Positions 27,957 through 49,309 of a stretch of 64,000 bases of DNA are shown in pieces. Every line of letters begins with the position of its first letter. Position 1 is the first letter of the stretch. This stretch comes from an uncultured Gammaproteobacteria bacterium (lineage in GTDB: Bacteria; Pseudomonadota; Gammaproteobacteria; Pseudomonadales; Pseudohongiellaceae). The notes beneath the pieces were generated by a model. It did not search any database. It was not told the origin of the DNA and was given only the letters and a program-made list of their open reading frames with translations. Position numbers and translations under genes: made by a program. The stretch is taken from positions 1 to 64,000 of the forward strand of contig CAJXUA010000019.1 of NCBI GenBank assembly GCA_913060695.1. Reading direction: 5' to 3'.

Positions 27957-29354
27957 TCATTTAGAATCCAACTCTTGAAGCATGTATTCGAGAATCGGAG
28001 CTACATTATCCCATTCTCGTTTTAGCTCTGTAGGGTTTGGATAATGGTTTGCGTGGGCATTTGCTCCCAGAGTCTTTGGACTAAAAACGTTATGTTCATT
28101 CGATTGTACTTTGGTCAACGCGCCTAAAGCCTTTTGTTGGGCTCGATCTAAACCTGTGCTGTCAATGAGTTTAATTACTCGCCCTAGTAGCTTGTTGGTG
28201 TCAGTGTCGATGAAATTTGCCATTTTTTCGTGGAATTGTGAATAAAGATTCTCTAGGAACGCCCGAGTGAGGAACGATACTGCAAGTGGGAAATCATCCA
28301 CTGGGATATTACGCATCTCATCTAATACGCGCCGGAGAATTTTATGTCTAACTGGAGGATGAAAATCGCTTGGGACAATGTATCGTCGCTTGTCCGGACT
28401 AGGAGAAGATCTCTTGCCTTTGCGGCCTGAAGTCGAACTAGCTGACCCTCCCCCCTTAGCAGCGCGACCCTTGCCACCAGTACCGTCATCGACATTGCGA
28501 TCTGACAGTTTGGTCTTGGGAATGTGCTGACTTGGAGCATATCCTTTGTTTACTAGACCCGCAGCATAGGCTTCCCATTCAGCTTTATCTGATCTCGAGG
28601 TAACTTTCGGCTTGGGGGCCAGTAAGTCAGTAAAGAACTTTTCTATAGCTCGATCAAACTCGTCATAAGTGACCGTGAGAATCACTTCCGCATCAGATCT
28701 TCCGCTGGCTATCCCGATGGTCTTTCTGAAATATGGGTTCCCAAAGTATCTTGCGACAGTTGTGATAATGCGATCACTGCCTTCAGCTGGCAAAAATCCC
28801 TGTTTAACAGCGTAATCAATAATGCTAAGTGCAAGTGCATTAGTGTTGGGTTTATTAGTAGCATCCTTATGACGTGCTTTCTGCTCAGCGTCCCACTTGC
28901 GCGTACCTATGCCTTCTTGCTCGCCATCGTGGCGTCGTTCGATCCAGATATCCGCTGCCTCTCGACTTGGAAATAGTACACCTGTTATCTCTCGGGGCAC
29001 TAAAGTACTTCCATCTGCCAAACTCTTAAAGTAATTTCGCTCCCCGTCCGGGGCTGCACTGGGATTGTTTAGCAAGATGATTGAGCACAGTCGCCGATTG
29101 CCTTCAACTGCAACATAATTTCCGCCTTCATCCTGAATTATGGCAAATAGCTCCAATGGGCTTAGACCTTCGGCGGCTATAGCCCGCGCCAAGTTGCGTA
29201 CTTTCTCTTTTTTTAGGAGATGAGCAATTATGTCCGATTGGCTGGCAAGAGGTTCATGACGGGGGTTCGCGGTGTCTAGATATACATCTAATGGATTGAG
29301 CCTTAAGGTTTTGATTTCACTGATGTCTTTACCTCGAGTATCTTTTGACGCCAT
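27957..29354 (-). CDS. ParB/Srx-type nuclease-fold protein
   Basis: A 465-residue protein. Residues 10-120 carry the ParB/sulfiredoxin fold pattern: N-terminal strand LNPLDVYLDTANPR, then GLSPLELFAII and the VEGNRR box at 83-88 that binds CTP/phosphate in ParB-like proteins. The middle is helical and basic. A Gly/Ser/Lys linker (about 275-320) leads to a C-terminal helical domain. There is no ParA neighbour, so partitioning is unlikely. The partner is the Dam-like methylase just downstream. A GTGGAGAG ribosome site supports the start. The function is unknown. Confidence 0.75.
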   Translation of the reverse strand: MASKDTRGKDISEIKTLRLNPLDVYLDTANPRHEPLASQSDIIAHLLKKEKVRNLARAIAAEGLSPLELFAIIQDEGGNYVAVEGNRRLCSIILLNNPSAAPDGERNYFKSLADGSTLVPREITGVLFPSREAADIWIERRHDGEQEGIGTRKWDAEQKARHKDATNKPNTNALALSIIDYAVKQGFLPAEGSDRIITTVARYFGNPYFRKTIGIASGRSDAEVILTVTYDEFDRAIEKFFTDLLAPKPKVTSRSDKAEWEAYAAGLVNKGYAPSQHIPKTKLSDRNVDDGTGGKGRAAKGGGSASSTSGRKGKRSSPSPDKRRYIVPSDFHPPVRHKILRRVLDEMRNIPVDDFPLAVSFLTRAFLENLYSQFHEKMANFIDTDTNKLLGRVIKLIDSTGLDRAQQKALGALTKVQSNEHNVFSPKTLGANAHANHYPNPTELKREWDNVAPILEYMLQELDSK

Positions 29355-30058: not shown

Positions 30059-30366
30059 TAGTTGCTCCGACTTCTGAGCTTGAAAACAGTGATAATTCTG
30101 GCTGGATGCGCCATCACGAAAACGATGCCGTCGCGGGTCTTTCGATACCAGTATTCTTGATTAGCCGGTGTAGCCAGATGCGAGTGACCAGGACAGAATT
30201 TGCGCAGCAACTTGAAGTCGTTGCGGGTGAGTCGCAAGCTGGCTTGGTCGAAGACCTGTTCGATCTCGCGACCAGGGAATCTCCTGGTGAAACGTGCTCT
30301 GGCATGGTGAGTGACTCTCAAGCCAGATCGGCTAGACTCACATTTTTTGGAATCGACTGCGCTCAT
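30058..30366 (-). CDS. Small prophage protein, DUF4258/RelE-fold-like
   Basis: About 102 residues from the ATG at 30366, which overlaps the preceding stop (TGATG); the open frame to 30483 is rejected. The pattern H-A-RxR..R, then EIEQVFDQA, YWYRKTRDGIVFVM and IITVFKL resembles the small DUF4258/RelE-like fold. Toxin activity is not implied, because no antitoxin-like partner was identified with confidence. Confidence 0.6.
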   Translation of the reverse strand: MSAVDSKKCESSRSGLRVTHHARARFTRRFPGREIEQVFDQASLRLTRNDFKLLRKFCPGHSHLATPANQEYWYRKTRDGIVFVMAHPARIITVFKLRSRSN

Positions 30367-30642: not shown

Positions 30643-31005
30643 TCAAGTCAGATCATCGAATAGTTTGTGCTGCCTCTTTTCCCGCTCTGATACGCGCATC
30701 GCCTTGACGATCCGGTAGATCACCGACACCGTCAGTCCATATTGCTTTGCAAGTTGGAAGTGATTTGCGCCGTTGAACTTGCCGTAGATTTCGAGATTGC
30801 GCTCCGACATCTGCGCGGCGTCGGCTTTGCGAAAATACACTTGCTGACCGCCCCATGATTCCCTAGCATCTGCTACGATCTGGCAGGCGATATCGTGGGC
30901 TTGTTGTTCGTCCACTCCTCCCTCGGCGAGCACGCGCAGCGCGATCTGCTGGAGGTCCAGCAGCACGTCATCGTCAGCGTTTCTCACCAAGTTGTTCATG
31001 GTCAT
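30643..31005 (-). CDS. Mor/C-family transcription activator
   Basis: About 120 residues. The C-terminal half (ERNLEIYGKFNGANHFQLAKQYGLTVSVIYRIVKAMR) is the Mor-family pattern with its helix-turn-helix. The N-terminal half (LLDLQQIALRVLAEGGVDEQQAHDIACQIVADARESWGGQQVYF) matches the Mor dimerisation domain. In Mu, Mor and C activate middle and late promoters. Only one member is seen here. Its ATG overlaps the gemA stop (ATGA). Likely targets are the identical palindromes at 40151 and 46592. Confidence 0.85.
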   Translation of the reverse strand: MTMNNLVRNADDDVLLDLQQIALRVLAEGGVDEQQAHDIACQIVADARESWGGQQVYFRKADAAQMSERNLEIYGKFNGANHFQLAKQYGLTVSVIYRIVKAMRVSEREKRQHKLFDDLT

Positions 31006-31496
31006 TCCCAGTCCGATTCCTCTAATCCCACTCGAAAGCACCATTGCTTAAGTGACTCTATAAGCCTTCCAGCTACGACTTCAGGAAGAAAATCAGGTGC
31101 GCTATACCCCGCGCCTTGGTTGTATTTTTTAGTGGAACTAAGCACCCACGCATTGAGAGCGTCAGTGCCTGGCGAAACGAGATGGCCACCATCACCAAGC
31201 GTTTTCCAAAGAACATGGATCAGGCCAATCTGGCCGGTGGAAGCCATGCCAGGCGCCTTCTCGCGGCGCTTAGGGCGACCGCTGGTGAAACCCTTGCTCT
31301 TGAGATGGCGGATCACTTTGCCGCGCTCTGCGTCGCTCATAGCGCCGATTGCAGTTGAGGTTTTGCCTGTGAGGTTTTTCAGCATCAGCCGGTAGGTGCT
31401 AAGCACACCTAGCGACTCGTTTCCGTCTTCGTCGCTGATGCCAAGCTGCTTGGTCGCGATCTTGATCATAGCGATATTCTTACGCGGATCGGCCAT
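31002..31496 (-). CDS. GemA-like regulatory protein (DUF1018)
   Basis: 164 residues with the DUF1018 pattern: MIKIATKQLGISDEDGNESL..YRLMLKNLTGKTSTAIGAMSDAERGKVIRHLKSKGF. GemA of Mu modulates host DNA supercoiling and gene expression in the early phase. The C-terminal part (LIHVLWKTLGDGG...WVLSSTKKYNQGAGY) is the second half of the family. It lies directly before the Mor-like gene, as gemA and mor do in Mu. Confidence 0.9.
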   Translation of the reverse strand: MADPRKNIAMIKIATKQLGISDEDGNESLGVLSTYRLMLKNLTGKTSTAIGAMSDAERGKVIRHLKSKGFTSGRPKRREKAPGMASTGQIGLIHVLWKTLGDGGHLVSPGTDALNAWVLSSTKKYNQGAGYSAPDFLPEVVAGRLIESLKQWCFRVGLEESDWE

Positions 31497-36653: not shown

Positions 36654-37631
36654 CTAGTTAGCCGCTCCGAGGTCAGATTGGGATTCCAAATCATTGAGAG
36701 AGACATAAGGGGTGTCGTGGACGCGCAGATAGCCTGATAGGTTGTTATTGAATGAAGCGCTTAGGCTATTGAGGTACTCGAACATCGTTTGAATGTGAGA
36801 GGCGAAAGGCTCGACGATGGCTGCGGACTCTTCCTCGCTCAGGTCGAAGCGCTCCATCTCTTCCAGTATCTGGCTGACTTGAGTGTCCAGATATGAAAGG
36901 TGCATGATTACCTCACCAGACATATTGGTGAGGTTCAGGTTGATCTCGCTGACCACCCCTGCCCAAGTTTTTACACGCTTTGAGCGCTCAAGGAACTCGC
37001 GGTCTAGCTGGTTGATTTTCTGGTCTTTCTTCTCCAGAAGCGTCTCGTGCGCGTCGGCCTCTTCTTTGCGTTTTTCACGCTCTTTGCGCAGCGCGGCTTT
37101 GAGTTCGCGGACTGACATCTTCTCCACATCGTCCAGCTTCAAACCGGCTAAGGTGCCGCCTTCGGCTAGAGCGTCGAGATCATCATCATCCTCAACCATC
37201 AGTTCTAAAAGCTTCGATTTTTCCAAAACGGCCAACGTTGGCCGCTTTGAAAACTTTACTGCTGCCTGCATCATCTTCCGCGCAGCGCGTTCGCCTATAC
37301 CAATGCGCTCGAGTGAATCAGTGAAATTTCCGTGACCTTCGTGCTCCTTAATTACGATCAGTCGCGTACCAGCCTCAAGCATTGCTGTGGCGGACTCTCT
37401 TAAATAGAACTGAGCTTCGTTTTCAAGTCGAGTTCTGTCATAAGGCAGATCCCCACCATATGTCTTATCGACCACAGCGAGGTTTTGTTCGTGCTGAATC
37501 AGCAGTGAGTTTGCATTGGCTTCGGCATCGATCATGTCCTGTGGGGTTTTATTCACAAACTCTGGCCCGATTTTCTCCAGTGGAGTGTTCTTCTGACGTC
37601 CCGCTTTTTTCCTTTCGTTGGCAACTGCCAT
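36654..37631 (-). CDS. DUF3102 family protein
   Basis: 325 residues. The central part (LENEAQFYLRESATAMLEAGTRLIVIKEHEGHGNFTDSLERIGIGERAARKMMQAA) is the DUF3102 pattern, also found in plasmid and phage proteins that resemble RepB/KilA partners. Residues 195-250 form a coiled coil. Its place directly before the transposase suggests a role in transposition or its control, but this is inference. Confidence 0.8.
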   Translation of the reverse strand: MAVANERKKAGRQKNTPLEKIGPEFVNKTPQDMIDAEANANSLLIQHEQNLAVVDKTYGGDLPYDRTRLENEAQFYLRESATAMLEAGTRLIVIKEHEGHGNFTDSLERIGIGERAARKMMQAAVKFSKRPTLAVLEKSKLLELMVEDDDDLDALAEGGTLAGLKLDDVEKMSVRELKAALRKEREKRKEEADAHETLLEKKDQKINQLDREFLERSKRVKTWAGVVSEINLNLTNMSGEVIMHLSYLDTQVSQILEEMERFDLSEEESAAIVEPFASHIQTMFEYLNSLSASFNNNLSGYLRVHDTPYVSLNDLESQSDLGAAN

Positions 37632-37642
37632 GGTCTCTCTCC

Positions 37643-37942
37643 TTACGTTGGACTGCGTGAAAATCGCTGTTCTATCTCAGCGATGTTGGCTTTAACTCGG
37701 GCCATGCTTTCGGTATGTGCCCGTGAAACTTGGATGATCTTTGGTCCTAATCGCCATCTGCCTTGCATGCTAGGAATCTGCTCGACAATGCCGATCTTCT
37801 CTAAGGCTGCGAGATCACGAGTGATGGTGGGTCGTGAGACGCGCATAGCGTCCGCTAGCTCAGAGTTGCGAACTCCCATCACCTCATGCCCAGCCATACA
37901 GAGGATCAGCTGACAGACGCGCTCGTGAATGTTCTCAGCCAT
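37643..37942 (-). CDS. Winged-helix (DeoR/MarR-type) regulator
   Basis: 99 residues from the ATG at 37942, 7 bases after GGAG. The helix-turn-helix is at about 22-60 (MGVRNSELADAMRVSRPTITRDLAALEKIGIVEQ). A longer frame starts at 38002, but it has no ribosome site and overlaps a coupled micro-ORF. It lies just before DUF3102 and may regulate the early operon. Confidence 0.8.
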   Translation of the reverse strand: MAENIHERVCQLILCMAGHEVMGVRNSELADAMRVSRPTITRDLAALEKIGIVEQIPSMQGRWRLGPKIIQVSRAHTESMARVKANIAEIEQRFSRSPT

Positions 37943-38081
37943 TGCGATGCTCCATTGCGCCTGGACGCGGGTATTGGTGACGACGGTGTGGGTAGTGGCC
38001 ATAGATCATCTGGCCGCTGCTCAGTTTGCGACCGTAAGTACCTCGGGCCTTGCTGCATTTAGGTAGTGATCGTCGCTTCAT
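37935..38081 (-). CDS. Micro-ORF of 48 residues, basic
   Basis: A 48-residue frame (MKRRSLPKCSKARGTY...) starting with ATGA overlap at the stop of the CII-like gene and ending across the ATG of the winged-helix gene. Such linked overlaps are typical of phage early operons. It is strongly basic (Arg/Lys/His). The alternative is that these codons are the 5' extension of the winged-helix gene in another frame; only expression data could decide. Confidence 0.45.
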   Translation of the reverse strand: MKRRSLPKCSKARGTYGRKLSSGQMIYGHYPHRRHQYPRPGAMEHRNG

Positions 38082-39339: not shown

Positions 39340-39765
39340 ATGAGCGCAATTGGAGCAAGACTCAAAGAAGAGCGGGCGGCGTTTGGAATGACTCAAGAGA
39401 GATTTGGGTCAATCGGGGGTGTTGCGACCCGTGCCCAGCAGAACTATGAATCGGGAGCAAGATCGCCAGATGCGCAATATTTCGCAAAAATCGAGAAAAT
39501 TGGTGTGGATATCCATTACATCATCACTGGACACCGTCACTCGGCAGTAGTGGAAGTCTTCGAGCCAGTCGGATCTCCTATGGATTTCGCATTGGTAAAG
39601 AACATTCTAGAACTTTTCCGCGAAGAGCCTCGATGTCAGACGTTAGATACAGAAACTATCGCCCGAGTATTCATTGTGCTTTACCGGAACAATTTGAACT
39701 GGAAAACAAAGATCGGCAGCGATATGCTCTCGGCGGTGATAGACGCTATGATCGCAGTCAAGTAA
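39340..39765 (+). CDS. CI/Cro-type phage repressor
   Basis: 141 residues. The N-terminal helix-turn-helix (IGARLKEERAAFGMTQERFGSIGGVATRAQQNYESGARSPDAQYFAKI) is of the Xre/CI class. A short C-terminal domain (FALVKNILELFREEP...) has no LexA-type serine protease signature, so SOS-driven self-cleavage is not expected from the sequence. It probably maintains lysogeny. It has no clear ribosome site, consistent with a leaderless message. Confidence 0.85.
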   Translation: MSAIGARLKEERAAFGMTQERFGSIGGVATRAQQNYESGARSPDAQYFAKIEKIGVDIHYIITGHRHSAVVEVFEPVGSPMDFALVKNILELFREEPRCQTLDTETIARVFIVLYRNNLNWKTKIGSDMLSAVIDAMIAVK

Positions 39766-40150: not shown

Positions 40151-40196
40151 TTTTGACGCGCGTCAAAAGTCTTATTAACACCCCCGCCATTACCAT
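40151..40196 (+). promoter_or_regulatory. Late promoter of the lysis operon with 18-bp activator palindrome
   Basis: The perfect palindrome TTTTGACGCGCGTCAAAA (40151-40168) is followed after 22 bases by TACCAT (40191-40196), a TAnnnT -10 hexamer. No -35 is present. The palindrome centre is about 43 bases before the predicted start, the position used by the Mor and C proteins of Mu. The same palindrome occurs at 46592. Confidence 0.7.
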
Positions 40197-40228
40197 GGTT
40201 CGCAAATCACAATGCGCGAGCTGCAACC

Positions 40229-40771
40229 ATGAGTGCCAATGCCTTTCTAACCGCTTTACAGGAGACCCTCCGAAAGGAAGGCCGCCTAGCTGATCACAGA
40301 GCTGATCGCGGCGGGGTTACTGACTATGGCATAAGCCTCAGATTCCTAAAAACACTCCCCTTGATCGACGCTGACATCACCGGCGATGGGCACGTCAATG
40401 AGCAGGACATCAAAGCGCTCACGCCTGCAGATGTCGCCAAGCTCTACCGTAAGCACTTCTGGGACTATTACCGACTTGACGAGATCCAGCATGATCGCAT
40501 CGCTGTGAAGGCGTTCGATCTGCTCGTCAATATGCGCTCGGTATCTGCCGTAAAAATCATTCAACGTGCCCTTAGAGCCTGCAATACGCCTTTGACCGAA
40601 GACGGCGTGCTTGGCTCTAAAACCATCGCCGCTATCAACGGCATTCGCGATCAGCTCAATCCTCTGGCCGCAATGCGCTCCGAATCCTACGGCCACTACC
40701 GCCTCATCATCGCTGCCGATCCCACTCAGGCCGTCTTTCACGATGGCTGGAAGAATCGGGCTTACTCATAG
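40229..40771 (+). CDS. Endolysin, GH108 family, with an EF-hand-like insert
   Basis: 180 residues. The N-terminal GH108 core starts with Glu17 (KEGRL, putative catalytic residue) and GGVTDYGIS. The C-terminal part (FDLLVNMRSVSAVKIIQRALRACN.LTEDGVLGSKTIAAIN) is the second half of the zliS-like lysozyme. Between them Asp49 to Asp60 (DITGDGHVNEQD) form a calcium-binding EF-hand/dockerin-like loop. No signal peptide is seen. It degrades peptidoglycan at lysis and is the first gene of the late region. Confidence 0.88.
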   Translation: MSANAFLTALQETLRKEGRLADHRADRGGVTDYGISLRFLKTLPLIDADITGDGHVNEQDIKALTPADVAKLYRKHFWDYYRLDEIQHDRIAVKAFDLLVNMRSVSAVKIIQRALRACNTPLTEDGVLGSKTIAAINGIRDQLNPLAAMRSESYGHYRLIIAADPTQAVFHDGWKNRAYS

Positions 40772-40781
40772 GGGGTGGTAC

Positions 40782-41189
40782 ATGGCTTTAGAAATATTCA
40801 AGTTTCTGACATCAGCACTGGACCCAGTAGTCCGGTTGATCGATGACGTCCACACGTCCGAGGAAGAGAAACTCAACATTAAAACTGAGCTGACCAAACT
40901 ACAAAACAGCGTCACTGCGCAGATGCTGAATTACGAAGGTCAGCTGCTAACCTCACAAGCCCAAATTATTACCGCCGAAGCACAAGGCGAGAGCTGGCTT
41001 CAGCGCAATTGGCGTCCGATCACAATGCTCACGTTCTTGGTACTAGTGGTGTGTGACTCTTTTGGATTGCTTGCGTTTCGACTTGCCGATCAGGCTTGGA
41101 CGCTTCTGCAAATTGGATTAGGTGGCTATGTAATGGGACGCAGCGCAGAGAAAATCGCGCCGCAGATCAAGGAGATTTTTAAGAAATGA
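40782..41189 (+). CDS. Holin-like protein (3TM family)
   Basis: 135 residues from the ATG at 40782 after a GGGGG ribosome site; the frame open to 40611 overlaps the endolysin and is rejected. The helical N-terminus is followed by a membrane segment (PITMLTFLVLVVCDSFGLLAF), a second one (LLQIGLGGYVMGRSAEK) and a basic end, the plan of the phage 3TM holin family. It lies directly downstream of the endolysin. Confidence 0.8.
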   Translation: MALEIFKFLTSALDPVVRLIDDVHTSEEEKLNIKTELTKLQNSVTAQMLNYEGQLLTSQAQIITAEAQGESWLQRNWRPITMLTFLVLVVCDSFGLLAFRLADQAWTLLQIGLGGYVMGRSAEKIAPQIKEIFKK

Positions 41190-41311
41190 ATTGGCCGCTT
41201 ATCGCAGCATTGACGATCACGGCTTTCCACATCTGGGCAGTCTGGTCGTTGATCATTGCTACATGCTCAAACAAGTGCGAACAGAACACTGATGAAGAGG
41301 ACTATGACTAA
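41186..41311 (+). CDS. Small membrane protein of the lysis cluster
   Basis: 41 residues (MNWPLIAALTITAFHIWAVW... then an acidic tail). The ATG overlaps the holin stop (ATGA) and its TAA overlaps the next gene's ATG (TAATG). One membrane helix and a Cys pair are visible. It could be a holin partner or a spanin-like accessory, but it lacks a lipobox. It is too short for ordinary gene finders. Confidence 0.65.
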   Translation: MNWPLIAALTITAFHIWAVWSLIIATCSNKCEQNTDEEDYD

Positions 41312-41751
41312 TGGATTGGCTCGACATTTTCAAGATTGTAGTACCAATTATCACGTCTCTTATTGTCACGATGGTGGCGATGGTGTTGTGGATTTTTCGA
41401 AGAGAAGAGCAAACAAAAGCAGCTCAGGACAGTGCCACTAAAGAATACTGGCAAACAGTGCATAAAGCTCTGGAGTCGATGATCACAGAGCTATCCGGAC
41501 GGCTTACTGCCTACAACCAAAGAGCAGATGATGACAAGAAGGAACTGCATGCTCGAGTCGCATCAGTTGAAAAACAGTTTTATGACTTCAAGGAACACGT
41601 AGCCGGTGAGTACTTAAAGCGAGAATTGTGGGGAAGCAATCACCAGAATTTAGAGCGCAAAATAGACAACATACGGACCGATTTCGGCAAAGAACTAAGA
41701 GCAATTAGCGACAAATTGGAGCGGTGGAGAAATGAGCCTAAACGATCTTGA
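41311..41751 (+). CDS. DUF2730 family protein (Mu gp25-like)
   Basis: 146 residues. One N-terminal membrane helix (about 5-30, WLDIFKIVVPIITSLIVTMVAMVLW) is followed by a long coiled coil (about 40-140). It matches DUF2730, the gp25 position in Mu-like late regions, and resembles an inner-membrane spanin in layout. Coupled by TAATG to the micro-protein before it. Confidence 0.82.
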   Translation: MDWLDIFKIVVPIITSLIVTMVAMVLWIFRREEQTKAAQDSATKEYWQTVHKALESMITELSGRLTAYNQRADDDKKELHARVASVEKQFYDFKEHVAGEYLKRELWGSNHQNLERKIDNIRTDFGKELRAISDKLERWRNEPKRS

Positions 41752-42043
41752 AACACAACGGACCCGACTGCGGCGGCTTCGTATTTTGCAGGTACTTTCG
41801 CAGAATAGGCCGGACCCTATTGGTGATGGCTTAATTCACCGCTGCTTGCGCAACGATGTGGATCTAGCATTTATGCAGTCCAATATACGCAACTCGCTAG
41901 ACTATCTAGCAGAGCGCAAGCTGGTCACGATTACGCTGCGAACTGATGAGCGTTGGATGGCTAAGATCAGTGCCGACGGTGTCGACTTTCTCGATGGCTT
42001 TGGTCCGAAGTTTGAAGGGGTCGCGCATCCCGAGGAATTTTAG
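41732..42043 (+). CDS. Mu gp26-like winged-helix protein
   Basis: 103 residues: LRRLRILQVLSQNRPDPIGDGLIHRCLRNDVDLAFMQSNIRNSLDYLAERKLVTI is a winged-helix pattern. It holds the place of Mu gp26 between gp25 and the small terminase. It overlaps the previous gene by 20 bases. Its function in Mu is not established. Confidence 0.8.
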   Translation: MSLNDLETQRTRLRRLRILQVLSQNRPDPIGDGLIHRCLRNDVDLAFMQSNIRNSLDYLAERKLVTITLRTDERWMAKISADGVDFLDGFGPKFEGVAHPEEF

Positions 42044-42045
42044 CC

Positions 42046-42609
42046 ATGCCTGCGGTCAGTAAAATTCAACAACTCCCTGCCGATGTGAAAGCCTGGCTAG
42101 ACTCTAAACTGGTTGCCAATGCATTTGGCAACTATGACGAGTTGACCGAGCAGCTCAATGCCAAACTCGAAGGACATGAGCTAGAGATGACTGTCAGTCG
42201 CTCTGGCTTGGGCATCTACGGAAAAGGGCTCAAGGATCGTATAGAGAAGATCCGCAACAGTACCGCAGCGGCCAAGCTTCTCAATGAGACTATGGACGAT
42301 GAAGGCGATGCACTGGGCATGGCCAACGTTGCATTAGCCCAAGACCTCATCTTCCAGCTGATGAACCAGTACGATCCTGACGACACTGAGCACCCGATCT
42401 CTATCAAAGAGATCAGCACACTTTTCCGTGCGTTGGGCAATGTCTCGCGCGCTTCACTTCCACAGAAGCAGTGGGCCAAGAAAGTGCGCGAAGAGCTGGC
42501 TCGAAAAACCGCAGAGGCAGTCGATCAAATTCAAGCTGAGGCCGGCTTATCGGATCAGCAGTTCGAGCGCGTTCGTGCCAAATTCCTCGGGATAAAACTG
42601 GATGTCTGA
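42046..42609 (+). CDS. Terminase small subunit (DUF3486, Mu gp27-like)
   Basis: 187 residues. The all-helical DUF3486 pattern starts with SKIQQLPADVKAWLDSKLV and continues to the C-terminal IQAEAGLSDQQFERVRAKFLGI. It binds phage DNA and presents it to the large subunit. Its stop overlaps the start of the large terminase gene. Confidence 0.9.
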   Translation: MPAVSKIQQLPADVKAWLDSKLVANAFGNYDELTEQLNAKLEGHELEMTVSRSGLGIYGKGLKDRIEKIRNSTAAAKLLNETMDDEGDALGMANVALAQDLIFQLMNQYDPDDTEHPISIKEISTLFRALGNVSRASLPQKQWAKKVREELARKTAEAVDQIQAEAGLSDQQFERVRAKFLGIKLDV

Positions 42610-44194
42610 ACTTAGCGCCAGCCAACAGAAAGAGCTGCTCGATCAAGTCGACGACATCCAGCGCGAGCGCGTTGGGCAGTTCAATGCGTCCGAGGTACCG
42701 GATGTGCTGTTGCCGTATCAGAAAGCCTGGCATGCCGATATGTCGCCGGTGAGGATTCTGGTCAAGTCGCGCCGTATCGGTGGAACGTGGGGATGCCTTG
42801 CTGCCGAGGCGACACTGGAAGCGGCTCACCGAGGCGGCATGAATCAATACTATGTTGGTTACAACAAAGAGATGGCTGCAGAGTTTATCGGCGACTGTGC
42901 AAGCTTTGCAAAAGCCTATCAAGTCGTCGCATCGGCGATCTCAGTTTCCCTGGACAAGTCGGTGGTCGATGATGAGGCCAAAGACATTTTGCGCTATCGC
43001 ATCCGCATGGCCTCTGGTCACGAGATCGTGGCATTGTCCAGCAAGCCCTCGAACCTTCGTGGCCACCAAGGTCACGCGCGCCTGGACGAGGCCGCCTTCC
43101 ATGATGATCTGCAAGCACTGATCGATGCTGCGATGGCCTTCTTGATCTGGGGTGGACGAGTCGATATATGCAGTACTCACTTTGGCGATGGCAATCCGTT
43201 CAATCAGATCATCCGCGAGATCGAAGCAGGGAAACTCAAATACTCGGTGCACAAGGTCACTTTTGATCAAGCACTGGAGCAAGGATTCTATCAGCGCATT
43301 TGCCTGGTCAAAGGAGAAGTGTGGACTATCGAGAAACAGCGCGCTTTCCGCGATCAAATCTACGCGCTCTACGGTGCAGCTGCTGACGAGGAACTTGGTT
43401 GTATTCCCTCAGCCGGTTCTGGCGCCTACTTCACACGCACGCTGATCGAACAATGCCAGAACGAAGAGATTCCTATTGTGCGGCTATCCAAGCCTGCCGA
43501 GTGGGTGACCGATCCTGAGCGTATAGCGGAGATCGAAAAGTGGTGCGTCGATGTGCTGCAACCAGTAATCGACAATCTGAATATGGGGCAGCGCTCTGTT
43601 TACGGTCAAGATTTTGGCCGAGATGGCGACTTGTCGGTGATCTGGATTTTGCAGGCCAATGGTTTGCGCCGTTGGAAAACAGGTTTCGTGCTGGAGCTTC
43701 GCAAGATCCCGTTCGATGTGCAGAAGTTCATCATGCATTTCATCATTGACCGGTTACCACTTTTCCACCATGCGAAATTCGATGCGCGTGGCAATGGACA
43801 ATCTCACGCCGAGGCGGCACTGCAAGAATATGGCGAGCAGCGCGTCGAGTGCGTGATGGCCACCACTAAGTGGTACAGCGAGTTTTTTCCGAAGTACAAA
43901 TCCGCGTATGAAGATCGCACGATCGAGGTGCCTAAGAGCGAGGACATCATTGCTGACCATCGCCGTGTGGTGCTTGTCCAGGGCAGCCCGAAAATGTCGG
44001 ACGGACGAGATCGCGGCAGCGATGGCATGTACCGTCACGGCGACTCCGCGATCGGAGGTTTGCTTGCCTACGCTGCAGCGCTGGAAGAGACCGAACCGGC
44101 AGCCGGTGCCAACATCGATGTCCAAAAGAACTATGGCCTGCCTACGCGCATGGAAAATAGGCAAAGAACCACGATGTTTCGCCGCTCTGCGTGA
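42602..44194 (+). CDS. Terminase large subunit (Mu gp28-like)
   Basis: 530 residues with an ATPase N-terminal half (Walker A-like KSRRIGGTW near residue 60) and a C-terminal nuclease part (GQDFGRDGDLSVIWIL, HAKFDARGNG) containing acidic metal ligands. It packages DNA into proheads by the headful method of Mu. The 113 bases after it hold no gene. Confidence 0.93.
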   Translation: MSELSASQQKELLDQVDDIQRERVGQFNASEVPDVLLPYQKAWHADMSPVRILVKSRRIGGTWGCLAAEATLEAAHRGGMNQYYVGYNKEMAAEFIGDCASFAKAYQVVASAISVSLDKSVVDDEAKDILRYRIRMASGHEIVALSSKPSNLRGHQGHARLDEAAFHDDLQALIDAAMAFLIWGGRVDICSTHFGDGNPFNQIIREIEAGKLKYSVHKVTFDQALEQGFYQRICLVKGEVWTIEKQRAFRDQIYALYGAAADEELGCIPSAGSGAYFTRTLIEQCQNEEIPIVRLSKPAEWVTDPERIAEIEKWCVDVLQPVIDNLNMGQRSVYGQDFGRDGDLSVIWILQANGLRRWKTGFVLELRKIPFDVQKFIMHFIIDRLPLFHHAKFDARGNGQSHAEAALQEYGEQRVECVMATTKWYSEFFPKYKSAYEDRTIEVPKSEDIIADHRRVVLVQGSPKMSDGRDRGSDGMYRHGDSAIGGLLAYAAALEETEPAAGANIDVQKNYGLPTRMENRQRTTMFRRSA

Positions 44195-44307
44195 GGCTCT
44201 CAGAGGCCATGTAAGCGCTTTAACGATATCCCGGTACAACGAGCGGGAAAAATTCATGAAGTCGCCCTGAATCAATTTATAAACGCCACTGTTGCGAGTA
44301 TCAGCCA

Positions 44308-45735
44308 ATGACTAGCACTGCAAAGAAGAAATCACCCAAGCCTGCGCCAGAATCAGTAGAAAAGTTCATCGAAGCAGCAGGTACCAACATTGATGCAGAC
44401 GAGGATTTGTATCGACCGTTGAGTGGAAACAACGCTCGCGATCTTGAACCGATGAAACAGGACAGGATGCAAAAGCTCGCCAAGTTTCTATGGGAGTCAA
44501 ACTTGCTGGCCGATCGCATCATCGAGTTGCCTCTGGCATTCATGCTCGGTGATGGTGTTCGATTGACCTCGCCAGATGAAGAAGCACAAACCGTACTCGA
44601 TAAGTTCTGGTATGACCCGATCAACAAAATGGATTTGGCTTTGGAGGAGTTCGCTCGCGAGCTGGCTCTTTTTGGCGAGCAGTGCTATCCGGTGTTCGTT
44701 AACAACTTCAACGGGCATGTGCGACTCGGCTACTTGGACCCAGCACAGATCGATTCGGTGATCACCGATCCAGACAATGCACGCCAGCCAATTGGCATCC
44801 AAACCAAGAAAGACGCCAAAGGCAACTACAAGCGCTTTCGCGTGATAATCAATGCTGAAGAAACTGTGTTCGGCCCTCGCGCCAGGCGCAAGCGTAAAAC
44901 CTACACCGATGGTGATTGTTTCTATTTCCGCATTCGGGGGCTTGCCAGCGGATCTCGTGGTCGCTCCGACTTGCTACCACAGATGGACTGGCTAGACGCT
45001 TATGATCAGTTCCTGTTTGGAGATCTTGATCGTAACTCGTCACTGCGAGCATTCATCTGGGACGTGACAGTCAAGGGTGCTACAGAGGCTGAGATTATCG
45101 AGCGAGCTAAGAAGATCGAGCTGCCTCAGTTCGGCGGGGTGCGCGTTCACAATGAAAGCGAAGAGTGGACCGCAGTCAGTCCTGACATGAAATCCAATGA
45201 CACTTCCGGATCAGCCCGCCTATTTCGCAACCATGTTCTAGGTGGTGCAACTATTCCGGAGCATTGGTTTGGCGGTGGCGGAGATGTTAATCGCAGCACG
45301 GCTGGCGAGATGGATGAGCCCACTTTCAAAATTCTGGCAAGCAGGCAGCGCCGTCTCAAGTATATGCTCGAGGAGATCGGCACCTTCGTGATCTACCAAT
45401 GGGCTGAGAAGAACGGCAAGCCGAACGTGATCGATAACAAAGACTATTGGGTGACGTGCGAGCTGCCTGAGATGGTCCAGCGCGACACCACTAAATACGC
45501 TGCTGCTCTGCAGCAAGTGGTCGCAGCCTGTGTGGGCATGATGAATGCGAACCTGGTCACCCGTGAGGTGGCCATTGAATTGATCATGATCACGGCCAAA
45601 CGCCTTGGCGTGGATAAAGACCCCAAGCAGATGCTCGTCGATGTTCTCGCGATGTTAAAAAAGCAAGAAGAGGCCGATGCGGATCTCGGACTTGACCCGT
45701 TGCCAGAGGACGAAGCTGAGGCCGATGCTCAATGA
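44308..45735 (+). CDS. Portal protein (DUF935, Mu gp29-like)
   Basis: 475 residues. The DUF935 pattern covers DLEPMKQDRMQKLAKFLWESNLLADRIIELPLAFMLGDG, SRGRSDLLPQMDWLDAYDQFLFGDLDRNS and a C-terminal part with SAIGEM-like segments. It forms the dodecameric DNA gate of the head. It ends ATGA with the next gene. Confidence 0.92.
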   Translation: MTSTAKKKSPKPAPESVEKFIEAAGTNIDADEDLYRPLSGNNARDLEPMKQDRMQKLAKFLWESNLLADRIIELPLAFMLGDGVRLTSPDEEAQTVLDKFWYDPINKMDLALEEFARELALFGEQCYPVFVNNFNGHVRLGYLDPAQIDSVITDPDNARQPIGIQTKKDAKGNYKRFRVIINAEETVFGPRARRKRKTYTDGDCFYFRIRGLASGSRGRSDLLPQMDWLDAYDQFLFGDLDRNSSLRAFIWDVTVKGATEAEIIERAKKIELPQFGGVRVHNESEEWTAVSPDMKSNDTSGSARLFRNHVLGGATIPEHWFGGGGDVNRSTAGEMDEPTFKILASRQRRLKYMLEEIGTFVIYQWAEKNGKPNVIDNKDYWVTCELPEMVQRDTTKYAAALQQVVAACVGMMNANLVTREVAIELIMITAKRLGVDKDPKQMLVDVLAMLKKQEEADADLGLDPLPEDEAEADAQ

Positions 45736-46589
45736 ACGACAAGCAGCGACGCAAGGCGTTTAATTCGGAGCGGCTACGACTTCGCCGCGAGTATGCTGCC
45801 TTGAACAAAGACACTATCGCGACCATGAATACCATTCTGTCTACTGCGCTCGAACAGGTTCAGGCGATACTCAGGGCTTCGCCAACCGACTACCAAACAT
45901 GGGTATTGCCCCAGCTTGAGAGCCAAATTAAAACCGTGATGGACACGGTAGCATTACAGGGCAGCTCGCTCACACAGTCTTCACTTGCCTCCGCCTGGAG
46001 CAACGGGTTGATGACAGTGGACGGACCGCTTTTGGCCGCAAGCGTGCCGATAAGTACTGTTCTGCCATCTGTAGATGTACGCCAACTCTCGGCGATCTCG
46101 CATCTCACGACCAAGAAAATCACCGGCATTACACTTGAGACACTCAATAAAATTGATACTCAGCTCGGGCTTGTTGTCACTGGCGTGCAGCCTTTCTCCG
46201 ATGCCATTACCGTGATTACGAATGTGCTCGACGAAACTGTTCGCTACCGAGCGACGATGATTTTGCAAACTGAACTGAGCCGGGTGAACTCTATGGCCAG
46301 CCACTTGCGGAAGTTGCAAGCTGCTGATCATTTGCCAGGCATGAAAAAGCAATGGCGCAGATCCTCACGCAAGCACCCGCGTGAGACGCACGCAGCTGCC
46401 GATGGTCAGATACGCGAGATCGATGAGCCGTTTGACATCGGAGCGATCAAGATGCAGCATCCTCACGACCCCAAGGCCCCCGCCAGTGAAGTCATCAAGT
46501 GCGGTTGTCAATCTCTTCCCTATATGGACTCTTGGGAAGTTAAAGACCCTAAAAAACGCTCTATTCCCACGCCCACTGTTTTGACGTGA
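45732..46589 (+). CDS. Minor head protein (Mu gpF-like, SPP1 gp7 family)
   Basis: 285 residues of the phage Mu F-like/SPP1 gp7 family: a helical N-terminus, then IQTELSRVNSMASHLRKLQAADHLPGMKKQWRRSSRKHPRETHAAADGQIREIDEPFDIGAIKMQHPHDP with the family HxxxDG-type core. It sits on the portal in procapsids. Its 3' end carries a TTTTGACG half-site next to the late palindrome. Confidence 0.85.
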   Translation: MNDKQRRKAFNSERLRLRREYAALNKDTIATMNTILSTALEQVQAILRASPTDYQTWVLPQLESQIKTVMDTVALQGSSLTQSSLASAWSNGLMTVDGPLLAASVPISTVLPSVDVRQLSAISHLTTKKITGITLETLNKIDTQLGLVVTGVQPFSDAITVITNVLDETVRYRATMILQTELSRVNSMASHLRKLQAADHLPGMKKQWRRSSRKHPRETHAAADGQIREIDEPFDIGAIKMQHPHDPKAPASEVIKCGCQSLPYMDSWEVKDPKKRSIPTPTVLT

Positions 46590-46591
46590 AT

Positions 46592-46636
46592 TTTTGACGC
46601 GCGTCAAAAGAATCCCGCCTTCCACCTCGCTACGCT
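46592..46636 (+). promoter_or_regulatory. Second late promoter with the same 18-bp palindrome
   Basis: TTTTGACGCGCGTCAAAA (46592-46609) is identical to the copy at 40151 and is followed after 21 bases by TACGCT (46631-46636), again TAnnnT with no -35. It starts just after the minor head gene and precedes the head-assembly genes. An extra half-site TTTTGACG lies at 46579-46586. Confidence 0.68.
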
Positions 46637-46679: not shown

Positions 46680-47093
46680 ATGGCCAAGCCGAAGAAAACC
46701 ACTGCGAAGAAAACCACTGCCACTACGGCTTCGGTTGCTGCATCGCAGACCCCTCCCGACGCATCCACTAAGCAGGAATCCACTGCGGCTGCACAAACTG
46801 GTGCTACCGGTAATGACGCAAGCGCGTCAACTGCGACTACCCAGACAGCTAAAGCCGCAGAGTCGCCCGCTCCTGAAACCAAGGCAAAACCTGATCCAGC
46901 AAAGGATGAAAAGCCTAAGATTGCTGAGATGACCCCTGTACAGAAAGCCGCGAAGTTCGTCGGCATTCCAGTAGACCAGGTGTTGGATTTCGCAGAGAAA
47001 GAAGGCGGTCGCTTTGTCGTGGTTACTATCTCTGGCCATAAGTTCGCTGACACTGCCGCAGAGCGTGAAGCGGCTGCGAAGGCCAAGCGATGA
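46680..47093 (+). CDS. Head-region protein with low-complexity Lys/Thr/Ala N-terminus
   Basis: 137 residues. About 85 residues of Ala/Thr/Lys/Pro low-complexity sequence are followed by a compact C-terminal domain (MTPVQKAAKFVGIPVDQVLDFAEKEGGRFVVVTISGHKF) that looks like a small DNA-binding fold. AGGAG lies 8-12 bases before the ATG. It may help scaffold or decorate the head. The stop overlaps the next start. Confidence 0.7.
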   Translation: MAKPKKTTAKKTTATTASVAASQTPPDASTKQESTAAAQTGATGNDASASTATTQTAKAAESPAPETKAKPDPAKDEKPKIAEMTPVQKAAKFVGIPVDQVLDFAEKEGGRFVVVTISGHKFADTAAEREAAAKAKR

Positions 47094-49309
47094 AGATTAT
47101 TCCAAACGAGGGAATTGTTGGCGAGGTCGCACTGCGTGAAGCAGCTGTTGGCGAGATGCGCGATCTTATCGAGTTGGTGCGTTCCTCACTTGCTGTGAAA
47201 ATTGGCAAGCAACTAGGTCGCAGCGAACCTCAATGGTTGAATCTAGAAGCCATTTATCCGGATCGCGCGATTGTGCTTGTTCATGGTCGCTTTTACTCAC
47301 ATCCCTTTACTGTCTCCGACGACAACATTGTGACTTTTGCTGAACCTGCCGAAGTGGTTCGTGAGTTCACAGCAGTGACTGCTATGCGCGAAGCGGTCTC
47401 TCTGATCGAAGCCGCTGGCGAGAAAGAATCACACTCTTTCCTGATCCGCATCGTTAAAGCCGGTACTTCCAAGAACAAAAAAATCTATCCCGATTCAGTG
47501 CTGCGTGAAGCCACTCCGCTGTTCGCTGGTTGCCGTGTGTTTCTGAAAAGCGATGACGAGCATTTGGCGGGTAAAGGCAAGTCGGTACGCAATCTGGTGG
47601 GCGGACTTAGTAATCCGCAATTCATCGAAGGCGCGAGTGCTGACACCGGCGAGATTCAAGCACGGCTCGATGTGCTCGATGCGGATATCTCTACCAAGCT
47701 GCGCGAGGCGATTGATCGCAAGCTCACTCACCTGTTCGGTTTCTCCATCGATGTCGAGGGCGAGGCCAAGCGCAAAGGGCAGTTCGTCGAGGCTGTTCGA
47801 TTCACCAAAGTCCACTCCGTTGACATGATCGTTGAACCAGGCGCGGGTGGCGAACTAATTAATTTCATTGAGGCTGTCGCCTCACAATCCCAAGAGGAAG
47901 ACGCCATGAAGCAGCGAATGCTTGAAGCAATCCGCAAGGCCCATAACGGCAAATTGCCATCTGGTTTGGACGAGAACGATGAAGAGGCGGTTTATACCGC
48001 ATTCCAAGAAGCGGTAGCGTCTTCAAGCAAAACCGATGTCAGTGGTTTGGTAACTAAGGCCGAACTGGAACAAATGGAAGTGCGCAGCTCTATGCGTGAA
48101 GCCGTTCGTACATCCAAGTTGCCTGAGAAGGCACAGGACAAACTGATTAAGCAACTGGAGTCTGATCCAGCGCTGACCACTGTCAAGTTTACAGAGGCGA
48201 TCAAGGATGAGCGCGAGTACCTAGCCAGCTTCACTGAAGCAGGCACGATTCGTGGTCTAGGTGGCGGTGACGGCACAACAGGTCCAAAGGGCATTGCTGA
48301 GATGCTCGATAAACTGCTCGATCCTAGTGATCGTGAAGTGATCTCGATCAAAGAGTGCTACCAAGAGGCCACCGGCGACAAGCACGTCACTGGTCTTTTC
48401 CAGAATATGCGATTCCGTGAAGCGACGATTGAGTCTGACTCGTTCCCAATTATGTTGGGCAATGCACTGAATCGCCGCATTGTTGAGATGTACAAAGTTG
48501 AAGGCCGTTATGGTCTATGGCGCGAACTGGTAAGCGACATTATCCCAGCGAACGATTTCCGCGAACGTAAAACGATCATGTACGGTGGCTTCGGTGATCT
48601 GCCTGTAGTGGCCGAAGATGCAGCGTATGTGGATCTGGCTAAGCCTACAGAAAAGGCCGAAGCCTACACCCCTGGCAAGCGTGGTGGATTGGTGCCGATC
48701 TCTCGAGAGACCATCAAGAATGACGATGTGGGCTTCATCATGAAGATACCACGCAATGTCACAACTGCCGCATTGCGCACGCTGAATAAGTTCGTTCTCG
48801 ACATGATTCGCACTAACCCCACGATGTCGGACACCAAGGCACTTTTCCACGCAGACCACGGCAACTTGCTGACCACTGCATTGACCAAGGCCAACTATCT
48901 GATCGCCCGACTTGCCATGATGAAACAAGCCGATCATGACACTGGTGAAGCGATGGGGCTTGCGCCGAAGTTTCTCTTGATCCCTGCGGATCTGGAAGAA
49001 GCAGCGTTTGAAATGTTCCGTCGCGATACGAACATGGACGCGGACTTCGCACACTCCACAGCACCGCAGATTAGACCGGTGTCTTATTGGACTGACGCGA
49101 ATGATTGGGCAATGGTTTGCGATCCAGCAGAGCACCCCACAATCGAGATTGGATTCATCGACAATCGTCAGGAGCCTGAGCTGTTTATACAGGACATGGC
49201 GACCTCTGGTTCGATGTTCACTCACGACAGAATGACTTGGAAGATCCGTCACGAATACGGCGGTGCTCCAGCGTCTTGGAAAGGCATGCGCAAGAACGTA
49301 GTGGCCTAA
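47090..49309 (+). CDS. Fused prohead protease and major capsid protein
   Basis: 739 residues. Residues about 110-250 (SFLIRIVKAGTSKNKKIYP.., HLAGKGKSVRNLVGGLSNP, HLFGFSIDVEGEAK, VHSVDMIVEPGAGGEL) have the prohead-protease pattern. A helical, Glu/Lys-rich delta-like stretch (about 260-390) leads to the major capsid domain (about 400-739). The capsid part includes LFHADHGNLL and PKFLLIPADLEEAAFEMF, as in HK97/Mu-type capsids. Protease and capsid are normally separate genes in Mu. Confidence 0.82.
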   Translation: MKIIPNEGIVGEVALREAAVGEMRDLIELVRSSLAVKIGKQLGRSEPQWLNLEAIYPDRAIVLVHGRFYSHPFTVSDDNIVTFAEPAEVVREFTAVTAMREAVSLIEAAGEKESHSFLIRIVKAGTSKNKKIYPDSVLREATPLFAGCRVFLKSDDEHLAGKGKSVRNLVGGLSNPQFIEGASADTGEIQARLDVLDADISTKLREAIDRKLTHLFGFSIDVEGEAKRKGQFVEAVRFTKVHSVDMIVEPGAGGELINFIEAVASQSQEEDAMKQRMLEAIRKAHNGKLPSGLDENDEEAVYTAFQEAVASSSKTDVSGLVTKAELEQMEVRSSMREAVRTSKLPEKAQDKLIKQLESDPALTTVKFTEAIKDEREYLASFTEAGTIRGLGGGDGTTGPKGIAEMLDKLLDPSDREVISIKECYQEATGDKHVTGLFQNMRFREATIESDSFPIMLGNALNRRIVEMYKVEGRYGLWRELVSDIIPANDFRERKTIMYGGFGDLPVVAEDAAYVDLAKPTEKAEAYTPGKRGGLVPISRETIKNDDVGFIMKIPRNVTTAALRTLNKFVLDMIRTNPTMSDTKALFHADHGNLLTTALTKANYLIARLAMMKQADHDTGEAMGLAPKFLLIPADLEEAAFEMFRRDTNMDADFAHSTAPQIRPVSYWTDANDWAMVCDPAEHPTIEIGFIDNRQEPELFIQDMATSGSMFTHDRMTWKIRHEYGGAPASWKGMRKNVVA

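Follow-up and report, generated by a model that had tools for sequence, protein, structure and literature searches.

Paired palindromes at the lysis and head genes of a Pseudohongiellaceae prophage as probable operators of its Mor-type activator

In bacteriophage Mu, the activator Mor binds a 16-bp element of two 5-bp inverted repeats separated by a 6-bp G/C-rich spacer, centred at -43.5 of the middle promoter Pm, where it replaces the -35 beside a recognizable -10 (PMC4390567). Late transcription is then turned on by a second activator, C (PMC4390567), at four promoters (lys, I, P, and mom), with Plys lying before the lysis genes and PI before the head protease and head genes (PMC4461284). 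Mu encodes two PF08765 proteins. The window considered here is the whole 64,000-nt stretch that was analyzed (positions 1 to 64,000 of contig CAJXUA010000019.1, assembly GCA_913060695.1, from an uncultured gammaproteobacterium of the Pseudohongiellaceae), and it holds a prophage with one palindrome before its lysis genes and an identical one before its head genes. Judged from sequence comparison, these two palindromes very probably serve as operators for a Mor-type activator that the prophage itself encodes and that would switch on both sets of genes. Like Pm, the locus has a Mor-family activator, a dyad near -43.5, a recognizable -10, and no -35, and like Plys and PI its sites stand before lysis genes and head genes. 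Unlike Mu, it has an 18-bp dyad of 7-4-7 layout and different sequence (as the preliminary description of this DNA had supposed), two targets that are both on late operons, no C, and a single PF08765 protein.

The palindrome, TTTTGACGCGCGTCAAAA, is perfect over 18 bp, its 7-bp arms pairing without a mismatch around a centre of 4 bp that is itself self-complementary, and it lies on the forward strand at 40151-40168 (late operator 1) and 46592-46609 (late operator 2). The preliminary description had reported two identical copies, seen nowhere else in the window and embedded in a shared 20-mer; the 20-mer is TTTTTGACGCGCGTCAAAAG, and the lack of other copies extends to the whole 3.73-Mb genome, where the pattern at up to three mismatches occurs at those two places only (a reversed control pattern gives three). 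Dinucleotide shuffles gave a mean of 0.05 matches at the same threshold and two matches in none of 100 shuffles, and the two copies are the sole perfect 9+9 dyads (spacer 0 or 1) within the window. The third copy that had been hoped for is therefore absent from this genome at up to three mismatches, while the phages B3, Fc02, Bise, and AFS-2018a have three to five. One further half-site, TTTTGAC, was not part of the preliminary description; it lies at 46579-46585 (forward strand), directly 5′ of operator 2, and overlaps the end of the Mu-F-like gene.

Each copy is followed by a TAnnnT hexamer at the spacing first claimed: TACCAT (40191-40196, forward strand) comes 22 bases after operator 1 and TACGCT (46631-46636, forward strand) 21 bases after operator 2, with these predicted -10 hexamers starting 31.5 and 30.5 bases from the respective dyad centres. 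Placing the hexamer at -12 to -7 puts the centres at -43.5 and -42.5, in agreement with the first estimate of about -43; all +1 positions given here are derived from -10 hexamers. A simple scan returned no sigma70-type -35/-10 pair at either copy, consistent with the proposed lack of a -35. Operator 1 is 60 bp before the endolysin gene (40229-40771, forward strand; PHROG 315), the first gene of the lysis/packaging operon. Operator 2 starts 2 bp past the stop of the Mu-F-like gene, ahead of the first open reading frame (ORF) of the head/tail operon (46680-47093, forward strand; no PHROG match, weak relatives in the phages L011 and L022) and of the head protease/major head protein gene (47090-49309, forward strand; PHROGs 29592, 4523, and 133). 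Gene content thus agrees with the placement of one copy before lysis genes and the other before head genes. The window's late mRNAs are expected to carry leaders of about 26 and 37 nt and would not be leaderless.

The candidate activator is a 120-residue protein encoded at the far end of the early leftward operon (30643-31005, reverse strand, ATG at 31005), with a helix-turn-helix (HTH) at about residues 82-105. Its match to PF08765 (92.5 bits against a cut-off of 24.9, profile positions 5-107 of 107) is the only one above cut-off in the genome, the one other place scoring 17.8 bits, and this Pfam search bears out the earlier identification of a single Mor/C-family activator in the early operon. 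GemA is encoded by the adjacent early gene (31002-31496, reverse strand), and the operon also encodes an integrase-core (transposase-like) protein and an AAA (B-like) protein. By sequence, PDB entry 1rr7 matches residues 15-108 with an E value of 9.7e-9. The AlphaFold model is modest (mean predicted local distance difference test score 71.2, predicted template modelling (TM) score 0.42); its best PDB match has an E value of 4.8e-4, and chains of Mu Mor and C fill the first seven places among its PDB matches, with TM scores of only 0.31-0.41. The kinship of the window protein to Mu Mor thus appears firmer from the sequence match than from the fold match of this model.

The nearest phages found, L011 (from IMG/VR) and L022 (a prophage in a Pseudohongiella metagenome-assembled genome), keep the operator positions with a different sequence. 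The endolysin of the window is 80% identical in L011 and 83% in L022, and the large terminase is 87% identical in L022. Both phages are without the window palindrome, and each has TACTAACTTAGGTTAAAA exactly twice (at up to three mismatches), just 5′ of the endolysin gene and just after the F stop, matching the window positions; in L012, a short relative, the corresponding head position is occupied by a variant that differs by two changes. This 18-mer forms six of nine dyad pairs, as read on L060 and L061, which carry the same 18-mer. Among 94 relative genomes other than the window's own, TTTTGACGCGCGTCAAAA was found in none at up to one mismatch. A search elsewhere for the exact palindrome returned three viral contigs. 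In the relevant one, the Mu-like L003, it lies between G-like and I-like genes, the location of Mu's I promoter region, and the 5.4-kb fragment contains no Mor; the matches in L004 and L005 were taken as chance, with returned stretches that look unrelated. The idea that the palindrome would be conserved in related phages therefore holds for position, pairing, and geometry and fails for the exact sequence, which is shared with the distant L003 only and not with the nearest relatives.

The resemblance of TTGAC-N4-GTCAA to FNR/DNR sites, together with the class II position of such sites near -41.5, suggests a host FNR/CRP-family regulator as the user of the dyads, and the window half-sites do look like the FNR/DNR half-site consensus. 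A host regulon would have many sites, however, and TTTTGACNNNNGTCAAAA at up to two mismatches occurs at only 6 places in the genome, both copies included, against 12 for a reversed control. With relatives also carrying other sequences at the same positions, we regard a host regulator as extremely unlikely.

Operator pairs at lysis and head or protease genes were found in 10 Mor-bearing lineages, namely the window, L022/L011, G437, G434, G436, B3, Fc02/JBD25, Bise, L058, and AFS-2018a. The 18-bp elements are phage-specific, range from imperfect to perfect dyads, and are common to the lysis and head promoters of each lineage. They read TAGTAACCCG(C/A)GTTAATA in G437, TACTAAAGC(A/C)CTTTAATA in G434, TTTTAACCCGCGTTAGAA and TGTTAACCCCCGTTAAAA in G436, TTTTCGG-type in B3, TTTTCGCYCCTTCCAAAA in Fc02/JBD25, AACTAAAGNNCTTTA-type in Bise, TTTTTGCGCGCGCAAAAT in L058, and CTTTAAANCACTTTAAAA in AFS-2018a, where the pair matches at 17 of 18 positions with -10 hexamers in register. 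The Pseudomonas phages B3 and Fc02/JBD25 resemble the window in having operators at lysis and I, a -10 in the same register, and one PF08765 match each; they differ in their half-sites (TTTTCGG in the former, TTTTCGC/TTTTGGA in the latter), in an additional copy ahead of the tape measure gene (with three mismatches in Fc02), and in I genes that start at the predicted +1. There are five copies in Bise; the fifth carries one mismatch, and 360 bp separate it from the next annotated gene. The A+T-rich AFS-2018a has five zero-mismatch dyads, four of which have a -10 in register, and two of the eight one-mismatch dyads listed have one as well (plus strand).

These pairs were not all found in the same way. 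A dyad-pair scan of nine genomes returned a late pair in the window, G434, and G437. L022 and G432 escaped it because their dyads are too imperfect, and these were found by sequence instead, while the G436 pair, also missed, was found later. Applied to six named phages, the same scan picked up four pairs that took in two of B3's three copies, and it returned no late pair for JBD25, Bise, Mu, Mae-JY22, or Vibrio 1.028; the operators of JBD25 and Bise were first recognized by eye and afterwards located by pattern. JBD25, UMP151, L060, and L061 were left uncounted as near-duplicates. Gene starts in L058, G434, G436, and G437 come from homology or chosen ORFs, PHROGs later bore out the lysis genes of G434, G437, Bise, and L058, and the B3 gene I start was taken as 19887 (annotated 19857).

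Two tests address pairing and geometry. The pair test scores the best 18-base match between the 200 bp upstream of the lysis gene and the 200 bp upstream of the head gene. L011 was left out of the permutations because its operator is of one class with that of L022. For a first set of 11 lineages, which included RcapMu at 18 and Mu at 14, the scores of own pairs add up to 179, while permuted pairs average 143.4 (standard deviation 4.7), and the own-pair sum was reached in none of 100,000 permutations. A second set, with AFS-2018a and PhiKM added and Mu and RcapMu removed, gave 177 against 144.2, again reached in 0 of 100,000. In this second set, 7 of 11 have their own partner as the single best match, B3 is tied for best at 15, KS10 is tied with five others at a background score of 13, and the own partner is not best in PhiKM or in Bise, whose I region scores 14/18 with its partner. 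The off-diagonal scores of 16 (G434/AFS, Bise/G434, and PhiKM/AFS) all have a TAAAG/CTTTA look. In the register test, NANNNT starts at dyad centre +30.5 or +31.5 in 25 of 25 tabulated sites, both window sites among them, and in 22 of 22 without L011 and L012. The mean over 65 registers is 2.8 with the peak included, the overlapping neighbours have 18 and 8, and the best of the rest has 7. Inclusion of later sites brings the count to 30 of 33 (AFS-2018a 4/5, G436 1/2, and the G434 third copy 0/1). One Bise site was shifted by one base to match the other Bise dyads and passes either way, and all sites were scored by an analyst aware of the hypothesis. What the comparison shows is the sequence, position, uniqueness, and -10 register of the window sites, together with conservation of the paired architecture in relatives that have other operators.

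Palindromes can form hairpins, and the two copies might for that reason be terminators, or else simple chance repeats. No terminator is predicted at either window copy, though, and the 18-mer of L011 and L022 has only its six of nine dyad pairs; the shuffles, the pair test, and the register test make chance very unlikely. The probability of either explanation is close to nil. An ordinary sigma70 promoter was likewise rejected, along with a terminator, a repressor operator, and an FNR-type site, on scans, copy placement, and genome site counts.

The identity of the binding protein was approached through gene distribution. A Mor-subfamily hidden Markov model matches the window, L011/G432, G434, G437, B3, Fc02, Bise, and AFS-2018a, and in L022, L058, and G436 the Pfam Mor model matches in the same record as the operator. 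KS10 has an annotated Mor that this subfamily profile does not match at an E value of 1e-3, and the GemA and DUF3102 profiles do match KS10. Another early regulator could bind the dyads instead, either the MarR/IclR-like winged HTH (wHTH) protein encoded at 37643-38002 or the DUF3102 protein, both of which are present in 9 of the 10 operator-bearing genomes tested (the window, L022, L011/G432, G434, G437, B3, Fc02, Bise, and L058). The tenth, AFS-2018a, has no match to either profile and yet has its 17/18 pair with -10 hexamers in register; a second regulator in that phage, the CI-like HTH_3 protein ORF12, may be the activator there. We know of no activator of the wHTH or DUF3102 families that works from a dyad at -43.5, which we count against this alternative, and on balance we consider it unlikely. 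Since Mor is present in all 10 lineages, whereas the wHTH and DUF3102 proteins are absent from one, Mor is inferred to be the binder.

A further candidate is the CI-like HTH repressor (39340-39765, forward strand), which could silence the late promoters in the lysogen from these dyads. Palindromes are typical of repressor operators, and the third G434 copy lies in a region with genes of no assigned identity. The repressor and early promoter region of the window is nonetheless without a copy, the late sites standing alone even at three mismatches, and every copy is late in L022 (up to four mismatches) and Fc02 (up to five), while the other B3 copies, at three mismatches, are inside coding genes. 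A repressor operator is therefore very unlikely. Overall, the proposal of late promoters used by a Mor/C-type activator has gained support from pairing, position, and -10 geometry across 10 lineages with differing operators.

A number of observations nevertheless weigh against a Mor operator at these sites. The nearest relatives do not share the window sequence, and GemA is as widespread as Mor. A lysis/head operator pair was looked for in KS10, G248, G114, and G360 and not found (the last three in the scan of nine genomes), the pair in PhiKM/KP12 is weak (13/18, with partial dyads), and the -10 rule fails at the third G434 dyad, the AFS-2018a dyad at 30289, and the G436 head site. In RcapMu (L072), one hairpin, CCCCCGGACCTGTGTCCGGGGG-TTTTGC, recurs in the 200 bp preceding 14017 (lysis) and in the 200 bp preceding 22439 (I); it may be a terminator or a GC-rich operator and was not counted. 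In nine phages, similarity between operators correlates with that of Mor outside the HTH (Mantel r 0.53, p 0.002) and, to a lesser degree, with that of the HTH (r 0.34, p 0.04), with an HTH-specific partial r of 0.00; the HTH adds nothing beyond the rest of Mor, and the co-variation does not demonstrate a recognition code. Transcription data from Fc02, a phage with three operator copies and three induced forward clusters, count in favour of the reading, and the order of the clusters counts against it. Strand-specific RNA-Seq after thermo-induction shows a left operon that includes a mor homologue and then three forward clusters, the first starting with holin-endolysin-like genes and the second mainly of virion structural genes (PMC9936078). 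The clusters are called sequentially transcribed, with the second incipient while the first is barely transcribed, and the start of the third is not stated in the text of section 3.2 (PMC9936078). Equal operators alone are insufficient to explain such an order. The examined text of that paper gives no late promoter sequence. The Fc02 genome has exactly three operator copies within five mismatches, two exact and one with three mismatches, which start 113, 52, and 75 bp before the holin, protease I, and tape measure genes, respectively.

By analogy with Mu, induction would lead to transcription of the leftward early operon and the production of Mor from its far end. A Mor dimer would next occupy either 18-bp dyad at about -43, where it would stand in for the absent -35 and recruit the host's sigma70 RNA polymerase to the weak -10. 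This would turn on the lysis/packaging operon (40229 onward) and the head/tail operon (46680 onward). In the simplest model, one Mor would drive both late operons directly with no intermediate C step, an arrangement that could be viewed as a variant of the Mu Mor promoter.

The remainder of the lysis/packaging operon includes an ORF (40611-41189, forward strand) with a three-transmembrane holin domain at residues 68-149 (Pfam GTA_holin_3TM), whose true start is probably near 40770. Genes for the small and large terminase subunits, the portal, and the Mu-F-like head protein (42046-46589, forward strand) belong to the same operon by position; the portal, which has no Pfam match, was assigned by position alone. 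A perfect 20-bp palindrome, CTTTATAAAGCTTTATAAAG, lies just 5′ of the F gene in L013 (9962-9981) and L014 (5106-5125), too near the start codon for the late-promoter geometry.

Of 11 phages examined, 8 carry a separate palindrome of 26-28 bp, CAAA(A/T)...(T/A)TTTG, at one and the same codon region of their DUF3102-like gene: the window (37224-37249, in the gene at 36654-37631), L011 (1212-1237), G434 (28076-28103), B3 (L054, 7893-7918), PhiKM (L073, 28403-28430), KP12 (L074, 27919-27946), and homologous codons of L022 and L058. Five phages have it in perfect form, while the copies of the window, L022, and L058 have 12 of 13 pairs. Fc02, Bise, and G437 lack it (the analysis covered part of the gene in G434, G437, and L058). 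Variation of the inner sequences from one phage to another suggests a DNA site inside the DUF3102-like gene itself, perhaps parS-like. The metagenomic relative L014 has five palindromes of the same type, 24-28 bp long, in a row at 347-540, with starts 33-47 bp apart.

Start codons add a further observation on late genes. In 12 of 33 sites, the distance between the dyad centre and an ATG is 42.5 or 43.5 bp, which puts the start codon no more than one base away from the predicted +1. These are I genes (L003 5102, L058 12257, Fc02 (L063) 20152, B3 (L054) 19887 with its start re-called, and G436), endolysin genes (G434, G437, and Bise (L056) 7003), and other late genes (Bise 15788, 19271, and 29332, and AFS-2018a (L075) 28253). 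Leaderless late mRNAs are predicted at those sites.

Mor-dependent promoters as such are already known. In the B3- and D3112-type phage literature covered, promoters are listed by their position or taken from general promoter predictors, without any late operator being named; 18-bp phage-specific late operators of single-Mor phages were not found in the literature searched, outside which lie the original B3 and D3112 genome papers. Prior promoter proposals may exist, and priority is not claimed. On an evenly balanced judgement, single-Mor transposable phages may form a large set of naturally diverged and possibly mutually orthogonal activator-operator pairs, in which the two to five late operators of each phage change in concert at a fixed -43/-10 geometry and many transcripts start no more than one base away from the start codon as leaderless late mRNAs. 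If fixed geometry and phage-specific operators do hold true, late transcription units would be predictable from sequence, and about ten activator-operator pairs would be on offer for testing specificity and orthogonality. It would also raise the evolutionary question of how several operators change together with their activator.

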